This document shows, piece by piece, positions 119-6,673 of a DNA stretch of 35,827 nucleotides. A program made the translations under genes and the position numbers. The stretch lies in contig MFLL01000006.1 of the NCBI GenBank assembly GCA_001781335.1, positions 1 to 35,827 on the forward strand. Direction: 5' to 3'. The stretch's first letter is position 1. Each line of letters begins with the position of its first letter. This stretch comes from Candidatus Kaiserbacteria bacterium RIFCSPHIGHO2_02_FULL_55_25. Its GTDB lineage: Bacteria > Patescibacteriota > Minisyncoccia > Phycocordibacterales > UBA2100. The notes beneath the pieces were generated by a model. That model was given only the letters and a program-made list of their open reading frames with translations. It was not told the DNA's origin and searched no databases.

Positions 119-565
119 CTACTCTGTTTTCGCCTCTGCGGGAGCTTCGGCCTTTGTCTCCTCTTTGGCCTCTTCAACTGCAGGCGCCGCCGCTCCTGCC
201 TCCGGCGCGACGGCTTCAGCCGGAGCCTCTTCCTTTACCGGTTCAACAGGCGCCGCTTGGGACTCGCCCTGCGTAGCCTCCGGCGAAGCAGGAGCCTTGA
301 ATGCAGGAAGCACGTTAATCTTCTTGCCCTTCAAAATGCCGACGGAGACGAGCATGTTGTGCACGGTCGCGCTCGGCTGTGCGCCGACCGAGAGCCAGTG
401 CTTGATTTTGCCCTCGTCGAGCTTGCGCTCCTTGCTGCGGGGGTTGTAGGTACCGACGATGTCGGTAAAGTTACCCGTTTTGGTGCTTTCGGTGTGCTCA
501 ACGACAATAATCCGGTACGACGGCATATTAATGCGCCCGATTCTCTGCATTCGTATTTTCAACAT
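119..565 (-). CDS. rpsP: 30S ribosomal protein S16 with long Ala/Glu/Pro-rich C-terminal tail
   Basis: MLKIRMQRIGRINMPSYRIIVVEH...GTYNPRSKE...WLSVGAQPSATVHNML is the S16 signature; low-complexity acidic tail. Confidence 0.95.
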   Translation of the reverse strand: MLKIRMQRIGRINMPSYRIIVVEHTESTKTGNFTDIVGTYNPRSKERKLDEGKIKHWLSVGAQPSATVHNMLVSVGILKGKKINVLPAFKAPASPEATQGESQAAPVEPVKEEAPAEAVAPEAGAAAPAVEEAKEETKAEAPAEAKTE

Positions 566-877: not shown

Positions 878-3082
878 CTATTTGGCAACTCTTTCTGCTT
901 CTTCTAACTTTACGGAAAGTAACTTAGAGACTCCGTCCTGACTCATAGTGACCCCGTAGAGCTCACCGGCCGCGGCCATCGTGGCCCTGTTGTGCGTGAT
1001 GACGATGAGCTGACTCTTGCTCCCCAGCTCCTTAATCATGTCGGCATAGCGCTTGCTGTTGGCTTCGTCGAGCGCGGCATCCGTCTCGTCGAGAACCAAA
1101 AACGGCGGGGGATTCACCTGACTCATAGAAAAGATAAGCGCGATGGAAGTAAGCGCGCGCTCGCCGCCGGAGAGGACTTCGAGACCCTTCACCTTTTTAC
1201 GCGGGAGCGAAACCGATATTGAAAGCCCTGCATATAGTTCCTCCTCTTCACCGACAAAGTCTTCATCCTCATCATCCAATTCCTCGCGCGGCCCGCGCCG
1301 CTTGGGCTGTTCAATCGTGAGCTTGGCTTCCCCGCCGCCGAAGAGCTTCACGAAGAACCCCTTGAGCGCTTCGTTGATATGCTTGAGCCCATCCTTGAAT
1401 TTCTCGTCTATCGTCTTTTCCAGTTCCGTAATGATGTCTTTGAGCTTTGAGGCGGATGTTTCGAGGTCGATGAGTTCGCGCGCGAGAAATTCGTCGCGCT
1501 CTTTGGTCTGCGAGAATTCTTTGACGACCGCGTCGCCGTTACCCAAGCCTGATTCTTCTATCTTTATCTTGAGCCGCTCTATCTGCTTGCGCCGTTTCTC
1601 CTGTTCACTCCGGTCTTCCGAGAGCGCACCCTGCGGTATTTCCCCCCGCTCCCAGCCGGTGAGCGCGACGCCCGCGAGCGCGACTCCCTCTCGCACCTCC
1701 TCTTCGAAACGCTCACGCAGTGATTTGATACCCGTCCGCGCGGCGTTCACATTGTTGAGTTTTCCCTGTGCTTCGCGCAGCGTTGCCTCGTGCTCGATGA
1801 CGTCGCGCTCGGCGGCAAAGCTCGCTTCGCGGATGCGCGCGATTTCCTTGCGCATCGTATCTATCTCGCCCGTCAACACTTCTTGCTCATGTTTCTTTTT
1901 TACGAGTGCTACCGTCAGCTCTTCCACCTGCTGCTTGGCTTCGTGACTGGTGACGGGTGCGGCGCCGGAGAGCCCTTCGACGAACGATTTGATACGGGAG
2001 CGGATATGCGACAGTGCCGTACGCACAGTACTGATATCGTCGTTGTGTTCGATGTCGGAAATCGTGGAGTCGAGCTCGCGCGCGAATTGTCGCACATGCG
2101 GCACTGCGACGATTTGCTCCACGGTGACGGTATTGGCCTCGAGTGCGCCCTCGGCGCGGCCGAGCTCGCGTTGCATGTCCTCGCCCTCGCGACGCACTTC
2201 CACGAGTCGCGCTTCGCGGGCCTGCAATTTCTCATGCAGTTCGCTCGATTTCGATGTCCCATGCTTCCCCGCTCCGGCTACCGCGCGCAACTCCGTAAGA
2301 CGATGGCTGAGCGTCTTTGACTCAGCTTCGCGGGCGTGCGCCTCTTCGAGAAGTCGCGCGTCCTCCTGCGTTATCCACGCATTTTCGCGCGCGAGATAGT
2401 CGTTGAGTTTCGCGGCAAGTTCGTCTTTCATTTCCCGAGCTTTTTCTATCTTTTCCACCTGCGTACGGAGGAAATTGAGATGTGGAGCGATTTCGCGACG
2501 CAGAGATTTGGTCTTGTCTATATTCACCCCCGTTTCTTCGAGCTTGCGCTCGCTTTCGGCTTTTTTGTGCTGGTACAGTTTCAGTCCCAGCGCGTCTTCC
2601 ACCATCTCGCGCCGCTCTTTTGGCGAGGCATTGAGAATGCGGTCGGCCTCGCCCTGCGAAATGATTTGATATCCCGAGCCGCCGATATTGGCACCCGCGA
2701 GCAGGCGAATGACGTCTTTGAGGCGCACCACCGTGCCGTTGAGCAGATACTCATTTTGCCCATCGCGGTACACAATGCGCTCCACCACCACCTCTTTGAA
2801 ATCTATATCCAGCAGGCGCGTGAAATTGTCGAAGGTGACCTTGACCCCCGCACGATTGGCCCGCGCGAGCCCCGGCGAGCCGCCCCAAATCAGGTCCTCG
2901 CCTTTTTTGGAGCGCATGCTCTTCATCGACTGCTCGCCGAGCACGAAGCGGAACGCTTCGGCGACATTTGACTTGCCCGAGCCATTTGGCCCGACGATGG
3001 ATGAAATGCGGGATTGAAAAACGAGTTCGGTCTTTTTGCCGAAAGATTTAAACCCCGACAGCTCGATTGATTTCAGGTACAT
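878..3082 (-). CDS. smc: SMC-family ATPase, shortened (734 aa), no recognisable hinge
   Basis: Walker A GPNGSGKSN, signature LSGGERALTSIALIFS, Walker B PPFLVLDETDAALDEAN; coiled coil between heads but no SMC hinge motif. Confidence 0.88.
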   Translation of the reverse strand: MYLKSIELSGFKSFGKKTELVFQSRISSIVGPNGSGKSNVAEAFRFVLGEQSMKSMRSKKGEDLIWGGSPGLARANRAGVKVTFDNFTRLLDIDFKEVVVERIVYRDGQNEYLLNGTVVRLKDVIRLLAGANIGGSGYQIISQGEADRILNASPKERREMVEDALGLKLYQHKKAESERKLEETGVNIDKTKSLRREIAPHLNFLRTQVEKIEKAREMKDELAAKLNDYLARENAWITQEDARLLEEAHAREAESKTLSHRLTELRAVAGAGKHGTSKSSELHEKLQAREARLVEVRREGEDMQRELGRAEGALEANTVTVEQIVAVPHVRQFARELDSTISDIEHNDDISTVRTALSHIRSRIKSFVEGLSGAAPVTSHEAKQQVEELTVALVKKKHEQEVLTGEIDTMRKEIARIREASFAAERDVIEHEATLREAQGKLNNVNAARTGIKSLRERFEEEVREGVALAGVALTGWERGEIPQGALSEDRSEQEKRRKQIERLKIKIEESGLGNGDAVVKEFSQTKERDEFLARELIDLETSASKLKDIITELEKTIDEKFKDGLKHINEALKGFFVKLFGGGEAKLTIEQPKRRGPREELDDEDEDFVGEEEELYAGLSISVSLPRKKVKGLEVLSGGERALTSIALIFSMSQVNPPPFLVLDETDAALDEANSKRYADMIKELGSKSQLIVITHNRATMAAAGELYGVTMSQDGVSKLLSVKLEEAERVAK

Positions 3083-4123: not shown

Positions 4124-4225
4124 ACAGAAATGATTTAGGCGGTTATAGTCCCATCGTCCCGCCTCAGCGGGGTTTGCACAAGGCCTCCGTGGGGACTACC
4201 GACCCGAGTCAAAATTTAGGGTATT

Positions 4226-4250
4226 GAGATTGAGGTTAAACCTCAATCTC
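4226..4250. repeat. REP-like palindrome, left flank of RAYT
   Basis: GAGATTGAGGTT-A-AACCTCAATCTC, perfect 12-nt arms. Confidence 0.9.
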
Positions 4251-4268
4251 TGGAGTATAATAGGTGTC

Positions 4269-4940
4269 ATGGCAAACCGGAAACCGATTCAGGTTGACGA
4301 ATGGTATCACTGCTACAATCGCGGAGTCGATAAACGAAAAGTGTTCCTTGAAGAAAGGGATTACGAGCGTCTTTTGCTTCATATGTTTCTTGGCAAAAGG
4401 TCGAAGCCAATACAGCTCTTCAACGCGAATGACCATCGGATCGAAACTATTTTAAAGGAGACCGAAAACACAACGAGGCCGGATATTGTTGAAATCGGTG
4501 CGTATGCGCTTATGCCGAACCACTTTCACTTTGTGCTGAAAGAAGTACAGGAGGGTGGCATCGCGCTCTTCATGCAAAAAGTATTCACTGGCTACACGAT
4601 GTATTTTAATCAGAAATACGCTCGTACCGGAGCACTATTTGCTGGTACGTTCAAGTCCAACCACGTTGCGGACGATCGGTATCTAAAGCATCTAGTCTCC
4701 TATGTACACCTAAATCCTGCCGAATTATTCGACCCGAAATGGAATGGAAAAAATGGCAATCTGGCTAAAATTGAAAAAGGTTTACGGGAGTATCCGTACT
4801 CAAGCCTGCCAGAATTCGCGGGGCAGATTCGGCCTCACAAATTGTTGCTCGGAGAATCGATATTTCGGCTTTTCGACACTATCCCATCAATACAGCAAAT
4901 GATTAGAGATGCAAAGACCTACGAAATCCTCAATTCCTGA
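4269..4940 (+). mobile_element. REP-associated tyrosine transposase (Y1/IS200-like, RAYT)
   Basis: HUH motif in ALMPNHFHFVL, catalytic Tyr in LKHLVSYVHLNP; palindromes on both sides. Confidence 0.92.
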
Positions 4941-4946
4941 GCTGTC

Positions 4947-4969
4947 AGATTGAGGTTTAACCTCAATCT
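4947..4969. repeat. REP-like palindrome, right flank of RAYT; overlaps last base of rnc stop
   Basis: AGATTGAGGTT-T-AACCTCAATCT; reverse complement of the left copy. Confidence 0.9.
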
Positions 4970-5658
4970 TACCAACCCTTGGCGGCAAGCGCCTTTTCGG
5001 CGGCGGCTTGTTCCGCCTCTTGTTTGCTTCTTCCCTCGCCGGTCGCTATCTTTTGCTCTCCTATGTAGGCCGCGACGACAAATGTCCGGTCGTGGTCGGG
5101 CCCGCTCTGCCCGGCCAATTCGTACGTCGGCGTCATTTTCATTTTCTCCTGCGAGATTTCCTGCAGTTTGCTCTTGGCGTCCTGCCAAAGGCGCTTCTCG
5201 ACGACCTCCTCGGTCTTGTGGAAAAGTTGCGCAGAAATAAAATTCTTCGCCGCGTCGTATCCGGAATCGAGGTAAAGCGCGCCGATGAGGGCCTCGAACG
5301 CGTTGGCAAGAATGATTTGTCGCGCGCGGCCGGTGTCGCGCGATTCGCCGCGACTCAGGAGCAGGTAGTCGTTCATGCCGAGCGCTGTCGCCGCGGCGGA
5401 GATGGATTGCGTATTCACAAGCGCCGCGCGATACGCGGTAAGCTCACCTTCCGGCTTCTCCGGATATTTGCCGTACAAAAATTCCGTCACGACGAGCTCC
5501 AAGACCGCATCGCCTAGAAATTCGAGACGCTCATTGTGCTCACGCCCCGGCGCACGGTTTTCGTTGAGATACGAGCGGTGCGTGAAGGCCTGCTCCAACA
5601 GGCTCGGCGTCTTGAAGCTATAACCGATTTTTGTTTCAAATGTTGAGAAGTCAGGCAT
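4969..5658 (-). CDS. rnc: Ribonuclease III
   Basis: HNERLEFLGDAVLELVVTEFLY, NAFEALIGALYLD, C-terminal dsRBD (YELAGQSGPDHDRTF...GRSKQEAEQAAAEKAL); ATG at 5658 (ORF extends to TTG at 5670). Confidence 0.95.
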   Translation of the reverse strand: MPDFSTFETKIGYSFKTPSLLEQAFTHRSYLNENRAPGREHNERLEFLGDAVLELVVTEFLYGKYPEKPEGELTAYRAALVNTQSISAAATALGMNDYLLLSRGESRDTGRARQIILANAFEALIGALYLDSGYDAAKNFISAQLFHKTEEVVEKRLWQDAKSKLQEISQEKMKMTPTYELAGQSGPDHDRTFVVAAYIGEQKIATGEGRSKQEAEQAAAEKALAAKGW

Positions 5659-5674
5659 GAGCTGTCGCAATTCT

Positions 5675-5763
5675 CAATTTACAATTTTCAATTTTCAGTT
5701 AATACCGGTGCAACATCAGACCTTGAAAATTGATTGAAAATTGTAAATTAAAAATTGTAAATT
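5675..5763. repeat. AT-rich imperfect inverted repeat plus short tandem repeat
   Basis: CAATTTACAATTTTCAATTTTCA (5675-5697) versus TGAAAATTGATTGAAAATTGTAAATT (5724-5749), then a second AAAATTGTAAATT. Confidence 0.7.
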
Positions 5764-6673
5764 ATTTACGACTCTTTTGCGCTAATAGATTAATTGCCCT
5801 AGTAACAACCGGAAGTATATCATCATAGAAATTCAAGTCGCCGACGGACGCGAGTGGGAACCACTGCGCGTCGTCGAGTCCGCCCTCTTTGCGGAGCGCA
5901 AGGTCGGCGAACGCGGCACGCGCGAGGAAATACGTCGCGTGGCGCTTTTTCTTGCCGCCGGTTGCCTTGCTGTCGTTGGCGATGTATTCATTTTCACCGA
6001 GCTGGTCTTCCACTTCCACCACAAGACCGATTTCCTCTTTCACTTTGCGGATGACCGCATCGGTGTGTTTTTCTTCGGGCTGGAGCTTGCCCTTGGAGAG
6101 CGTCCAATGGCCGAAGATATCGTGCACGAGCGCGAGGTACACCTCGTCCGGCTCACGCGCATAGACGACGGCGCCGACGAGGTGCTCGACCGGCATTTTG
6201 CCTGTCTTTTGCGGTGCTGCTTTGCGGGTGCCGCCCTCATCTTTTCCCGGCTCGCCGAGCTCGACATACACTGCGCCCAAAACGCCGTTTACAAAGCGTC
6301 CCGACGACGTGGAGCCGAAGCTCTTAGCGAGCTCTATCGCCTCGTTGATGGCGACTTTGGCCGGTACCTGCGCGCGGTCGGCGTACAAAAGCTCCGTGAG
6401 GCCGAGACGCAGGATGTTGCGGTCTATCGCACTGATTTTCTCAAGCGGCCACTCGGGTGCGGCGCGGACGATGACTTCGTCTATCTCCTTCTGCTTACTG
6501 ATAGCGGTCTGGAGAAGCTGTTTCATAAAAGGCATGTCACTCTCTCGCGCACCGAATTCTTTGCCGTAATCGGCGAGACGCCCGATGCATTCATCGAGAC
6601 CCATGTTTCCGTTTTGGTCGCGCTCGAAAAGTACCTGGAGGACGACGGAGCGTGCGAGATGTCTATTTGCCAT
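5762..6673 (-). CDS. nusB: NusB antitermination factor fused to a C-terminal NUDIX hydrolase domain
   Basis: N-term ARSVVLQVLFERDQN...SAIDRNILRLGLTELLY...VAINEAIELAKSFGSTSSGRFVNGVLGAV (NusB); C-term GKLQPEEKHTDAVIRKVKEEIGL (NUDIX box). Confidence 0.9.
   Translation of the reverse strand: MANRHLARSVVLQVLFERDQNGNMGLDECIGRLADYGKEFGARESDMPFMKQLLQTAISKQKEIDEVIVRAAPEWPLEKISAIDRNILRLGLTELLYADRAQVPAKVAINEAIELAKSFGSTSSGRFVNGVLGAVYVELGEPGKDEGGTRKAAPQKTGKMPVEHLVGAVVYAREPDEVYLALVHDIFGHWTLSKGKLQPEEKHTDAVIRKVKEEIGLVVEVEDQLGENEYIANDSKATGGKKKRHATYFLARAAFADLALRKEGGLDDAQWFPLASVGDLNFYDDILPVVTRAINLLAQKSRK

Follow-up and report, generated by a model that had tools for sequence, protein, structure and literature searches.

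A hingeless chromosomal Smc in Candidatus Kaiserbacteria and other Patescibacteria, with a predicted helical hairpin in the position of the hinge

The window, by which we mean the whole analysed stretch of 35,827 nucleotides (contig MFLL01000006.1 of Candidatus Kaiserbacteria bacterium RIFCSPHIGHO2_02_FULL_55_25, positions 1 to 35,827), encodes an Smc protein in which the globular hinge is missing and a short helical hairpin is predicted in its place. The reading that we consider probable is that the protein serves as the chromosomal Smc in an Smc-ScpAB condensin that is standard in other respects, and that the hairpin replaces the hinge as the dimeriser at the apex of the arms. The source genome comprises 868 kb in 33 contigs and is 99% complete, and its close relatives are, by name, Ca. 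Kaiserbacteria and other Paceibacterota/Patescibacteria. The gene, its parts and its conserved neighbours are located in the window as follows:

119..565, minus strand: rpsP, encoding ribosomal protein S16, in the region canonically downstream of smc in bacteria
878..3082, minus strand: smc, hingeless Smc of 734 aa, with an ATG start and the stop codon at 878-880
881..1339, minus strand: C-terminal ATPase half-head, residues 582-734, with LSGGE at 1160-1174, followed by Walker B
1238..1294, minus strand: acidic loop (residues 597-615) within the C-terminal half-head, disordered, from AlphaFold, alignment and composition
1340..1945, minus strand: C-terminal arm, residues 380-581, from AlphaFold
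1946-1975 and 2105-2137, minus strand: linkers, residues 370-379 and 316-326, of low AlphaFold confidence
1976..2104, minus strand: apex helical hairpin of about 45 residues in the hinge position, predicted by AlphaFold, conserved and without a hinge match
1976-2035, minus strand: helix B of the hairpin, residues 350-369, from AlphaFold
2048-2104, minus strand: helix A of the hairpin, residues 327-345, from AlphaFold
2138..2581, minus strand: helix of the N-terminal arm, about 148 residues long (168-315), from the AlphaFold secondary structure
2582..3082, minus strand: N-terminal ATPase half-head, residues 1-167, with Walker A GPNGSGKS at 2969-2992
4969..5670, minus strand: rnc, encoding RNase III, the gene canonically upstream of smc in bacteria

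The plus strand is rich in stop codons across the gene, and the frame is read on the minus strand. A preliminary description, made from the sequence alone, had placed a protein of this length with both ATPase heads at 878..3082, which is confirmed by the motifs and by the match to SMC_N (PF02463; 2.5e-66). The Walker A motif corresponds to residues 31-38 and the signature motif LSGGE to residues 637-641, and Walker B is also present. The model SMC_prok_B (TIGR02168) matches two separate stretches of the protein (2.9e-163), the best of which aligns residues 2-462 with model positions 1-464 at 545 bits; the curated cut-off is 567 bits, and a score just below it is expected for a protein with a missing centre. 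The best Rad50 model reached 55 bits, and membership of the Rad50, RecN or ASRP families was rejected on the heads. The nearest solved sequence is the head of B. subtilis Smc, and the best PDB hits in a Foldseek search with the AlphaFold model (mean pLDDT of 80.6 over the whole protein) were Smc heads with coiled coil.

The smc gene is flanked by rnc and rpsP, all on one strand, which conforms to the conserved neighbourhood; the order in B. subtilis is rnc-smc-ftsY-ffh-rpsP. An ORF for a Y1 transposase of the REP-associated type (4224-4940, plus strand) lies between rnc and smc, and a Y1_Tnp-like ORF is likewise found near smc in the relative L134. The S16 ORF (119-565, minus strand) has a C-terminal extension, with 148 aa in total, about 78 of which are spanned by the family model, and a single frame of 303 aa at 5762-6673 (minus strand) fuses NusB and NUDIX domains.

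In the organism's own genome, scpA and scpB are adjacent to each other at a place away from smc, and ParB is also encoded. Judged by its heads, its arms, the rnc-smc-rpsP neighbourhood and the presence of scpA and scpB in the genome, the predicted protein is a bona fide bacterial Smc. It has the split Smc-type head, the antiparallel arm and the ScpA and ScpB partners, but the hinge family SMC_hinge (PF06470) has no match in the protein in a family-model search, and for this reason it is classed as a variant rather than a canonical member. Since ParB is present, ParB-linked loading may persist. The canonical parS site (TGTTTCACGTGAAACA, with at most one mismatch allowed) was not found in the 13 genomes of the genus that were searched (G000 and 12 others), which do have ParB, whereas four genomes from elsewhere in the order did yield it. 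The genus may use a ParB site other than canonical parS; the absence of parS has no bearing on the hinge.

The stretch that the preliminary description had singled out as lacking a hinge maps to residues ~317-379. The hinge is indeed missing there, but the centre is not featureless, and AlphaFold predicts the two-helix hairpin listed above. The confidence is moderate for its helices (pLDDT ~74-80) and falls below 50 at residues 316-325 and 371-378. Within the genus, the two helices have mean identities of 0.57 and 0.42 and the linkers of 0.67-0.70, and the apex with its linkers is thus at least as conserved as the adjoining distal arm, where conservation is lower than anywhere else in the protein (0.40 in the genus and 0.22 in the order). 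Seven residues (V330, R331, F333, R361, I364, F367 and L371) are invariant in all 19 genus rows. Helix A is more amphipathic than shuffled sequences (p 0.005), while helix B is not significantly so (p 0.09). When the apex profile of the order was run on whole proteins from other families, the best hits reached 18.5 bits and lay at the arm midpoint; these hits came from within the class and from a small number of families outside it, with no signal in the remaining families, and most of those above 2.5 bits were placed at the arm midpoint. Most of the distant apexes scored near zero with this profile, and a second, broader profile extended nothing, but by eye most of them are short helix-turn-helix stretches too. 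Homology of the hairpin across the whole phylum was therefore set aside; within the class it is supported, for a few families beyond the class the evidence is suggestive, and it extends no further. The arms are short, as the preliminary description had it, and according to AlphaFold have about half the usual length. The ~148 residues on the N-terminal side correspond to ~22 nm by helix rise, whereas the literature gives 47-49 nm for the arms of Smc.

In six relatives the apex contains the motif CP[TLM]CG. Three of these belong to one genus (G191, G336 and G344) and three to Ca. Nomurabacteria (L186, L193 and L198), and in the Smc proteins concerned (L070/L210, L211, L212, L186, L193 and L198) the motif is located near residue 330, where it replaces the hairpin. 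The hairpin is kept in further genomes of that genus and in close relatives, for example L213-L218, L191, L199, L203 and L206. On a tree inferred from the heads and proximal arms, the hairpin and hook states need four changes, at least two of which are forced by well-supported branches. The AlphaFold model of L186 shows coil helices at residues 282-327 and 340-447, with the cysteines in a short joining loop of low confidence. The Pfam model of the Rad50 hook gave its best match, a weak one (E 0.035), at the apex of L186, and no match was listed for the other three hook-bearing proteins searched. The motif suggests a putative Rad50-like zinc hook. The window protein itself has no CXXC, the mark of the Rad50/SbcC zinc hook. 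It has been reported that B. subtilis grows normally when a Rad50 zinc hook substitutes for the hinge of its Smc (PMC5344682), and that SMC hinges can substitute for the Rad50 hook in yeast (PMC6969161). Because the hairpin alternates with a hook-like motif, and because hook and hinge are interchangeable in these experiments, the hairpin is most simply explained as a dimeriser, and our analysis indicates that it is most likely a replacement dimerisation module.

The complex would then be built from Smc subunits in which the ~45-residue hairpin stands in for the globular hinge and is connected by flexible linkers to arms about half as long as usual. A pair of Smc copies would join at the apex via their hairpins, probably as a four-helix bundle, while the heads would engage with ATP and ScpA would close the ring. 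We infer that the product would be a small ring without a hinge channel that forms loops, possibly by extrusion, or entraps DNA. The preliminary description had held that dimerisation would need another mode, which is upheld, or else that the protein works as a short clamp; with scpA and scpB in the genome, it looks instead like a normal Smc-ScpAB subunit.

It is unlikely, but not to be neglected, that the apex does not dimerise, and that the protein works as a clamp with one arm, or forms a dimer only via ATP-engaged heads and ScpA, with the hairpin serving as a spacer or as a dock for protein or DNA. The flexible linkers and the moderate confidence of the hairpin fit such an arrangement, and Wadjet cores without the part from elbow to hinge can cut plasmid DNA, but only if an engineered disulphide holds them together (PMC12647877). 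However, the hairpin has repeatedly been exchanged in the same place with the motif of the zinc hook, a known dimerisation element, its hydrophobic positions are conserved, and the retained ScpA and ScpB imply two Smc heads per complex, the kleisin being asymmetric. Less probable still is a dimer held together by coiled-coil contacts between the arms, on which the hairpin would be only a cap. The arms are predicted by AlphaFold as long continuous helices, and SMC arms are juxtaposed as rods in other bacteria (PMC5344682), but the distal arm has the lowest conservation, and a swap to a zinc hook would serve no need in such a dimer. The apex hairpin as dimeriser remains our preferred reading.

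The absence of the hinge is shared by the relatives. In a six-frame search, PF06470 was detected in none of 60 related genomes, compared with 10 of 14 control genomes, so that a hinge supplied in trans could be rejected. The query was matched in 58 of the 60, nearly all of the complete matches being full length with open frames of ~720-800 aa, and the remaining two had only fragments or weak matches at the level of ABC ATPases. The architecture is the same in dozens of independent genomes at ~40-77% identity, and a full-length hingeless copy is located on an 859-kb record designated a chromosome (CP066682.1; L134). A profile made from seven Patescibacteria hinges scored at least 224 bits on those seven and at most 5.3 bits on 152 other rows, among which some genomes are present twice; with this lineage-specific profile silent on the hingeless rows, a divergent hinge overlooked by Pfam was also rejected. 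The lack of a recognisable hinge noted in the preliminary description is thus borne out with both models, and the assembly deletion that it had raised as a concern does not apply, since the relatives are equally short. With equal lengths in dozens of genomes including the chromosome record, a frame without stops, strongly conserved heads and the outcome of the six-frame search, an artefact can for practical purposes be dismissed, be it an assembly deletion, a pseudogene or a hinge with a gene of its own.

The preliminary description missed that the hingeless state is typical of most of the SMC-bearing Patescibacteria sampled. Among 240 genomes from the phylum, Smc was identified in 82 at a threshold of 1e-20, ScpA in 89, and ScpB in 89 (88 of them over the cut-off). 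ScpA was present in 80 of the 82 SMC-positive genomes and in 9 of the 158 SMC-negative genomes (Fisher p 1.6e-50). A hinge over the cut-off was found in only seven of the 240, that is, in 7 of the 82 with Smc. These seven belong to two families, have open frames of 960-1079 aa, and form one clade in trees based on the heads only (support 100/99). In a tree rooted with the Smc heads of B. subtilis, Geobacillus and two Pyrococcus, the hinge clade nests among the hingeless rows and two changes suffice, while a topology with all hingeless rows in one clade is mildly rejected (AU p 0.033). A single loss of the hinge with retention in one clade is thus weakly disfavoured, and it is possible that the hinge was regained by recombination or was lost several times. 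About 150 of the 240 genomes had no matches to Smc, ScpA or ScpB, and many of these are rated 97-100% complete. On balance, we lean slightly towards a view of the SMC apex as an exchangeable cassette, with a working Smc-ScpAB condensin on a small hairpin dimeriser in most SMC-bearing Patescibacteria, a natural swap to a Rad50-type zinc hook in some lineages and a full hinge that may have been regained in one clade.

The acidic insert that had been noticed in the C-terminal head is real. Residues ~595-613 correspond to a gap in B. subtilis Smc, and residues 597-613 have a pLDDT below 50. In 61 relatives, the surrounding loop of ~30 residues contains on average 36% D/E, compared with 18% for the whole proteins, and while its sequence and length vary, the acidity is kept across the order. 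Two of the relatives' smc genes, both from the same genus (L118:296-3646, minus strand, and L119:343-4236, plus strand), contain inteins at an identical site within Walker A (GPNGSGK/C...HN/SN, with slashes at the boundaries). One of these inteins has a LAGLIDADG domain, and the other has an NYN nuclease-like domain in the position usually taken by the homing endonuclease.

The protein resembles the Smc of the B. subtilis type (TIGR02168) in its ATPase heads with their Walker and signature motifs, its antiparallel arms, its rnc-smc-rpsP neighbourhood and the presence of ScpA, ScpB and ParB, but differs in having a hairpin instead of a globular hinge, arms of about half the length and an additional acidic loop within the C-terminal head. 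'Hinge-less' SMCs without the cysteine motif have been described in marine Actinobacteria (Sussfeld et al. 2025, PMC12153180). By the published description, they are similar in that they have SMC heads and arms and neither hinge nor CXXC; however, they belong to another phylum, and the paper gives no apex structure, ScpAB context or zinc-hook variants. Zinc hooks are known in the SMC relatives Rad50 and the archaeal ASRP/coalescin (PMC9389158). Rad50/SbcC and ASRP likewise have a short apex instead of a globular hinge, with a CXXC motif of the same kind as in the six relatives, whereas the window protein has Smc-type heads, kleisin partners and no cysteine pair. The engineered Smc(Zh) of B. 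subtilis, in which the hinge of an Smc has been exchanged for a Rad50 zinc hook while head and arms are those of Smc (PMC5344682), has the same composition as these relatives, but is a laboratory chimera, while the hook variant in the relatives appears natural. Finally, the hinges of MukB, Wadjet-II/III and Acetobacter Smc have lost the channel, mostly in combination with longer arms, which have been suggested to make up for the loss of the gate (PMC12647877). The loss of the channel is shared, but these proteins retain their hinge, and their arms are mostly longer, while the window Smc is hingeless with shorter arms.

In the open-licence literature, which leaves aside subscription papers and preprints, we found no hingeless Smc from Patescibacteria and no natural zinc hook in an Smc. 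The hairpin, its natural swap with a hook and the phylum-wide lack of a hinge alongside ScpAB thus appear to be undescribed in that literature, and the strongest new point is the natural interchange of the two apex types. The hinge is often regarded as an essential DNA-binding gate and as the dimeriser of SMC proteins. A large natural group that has ScpA, ScpB and ParB, but neither hinge nor channel and only short arms, offers a direct test of what an SMC complex requires to load onto DNA and form loops, and the relatives with the zinc-hook motif resemble a natural version of the published laboratory swap from hinge to hook.
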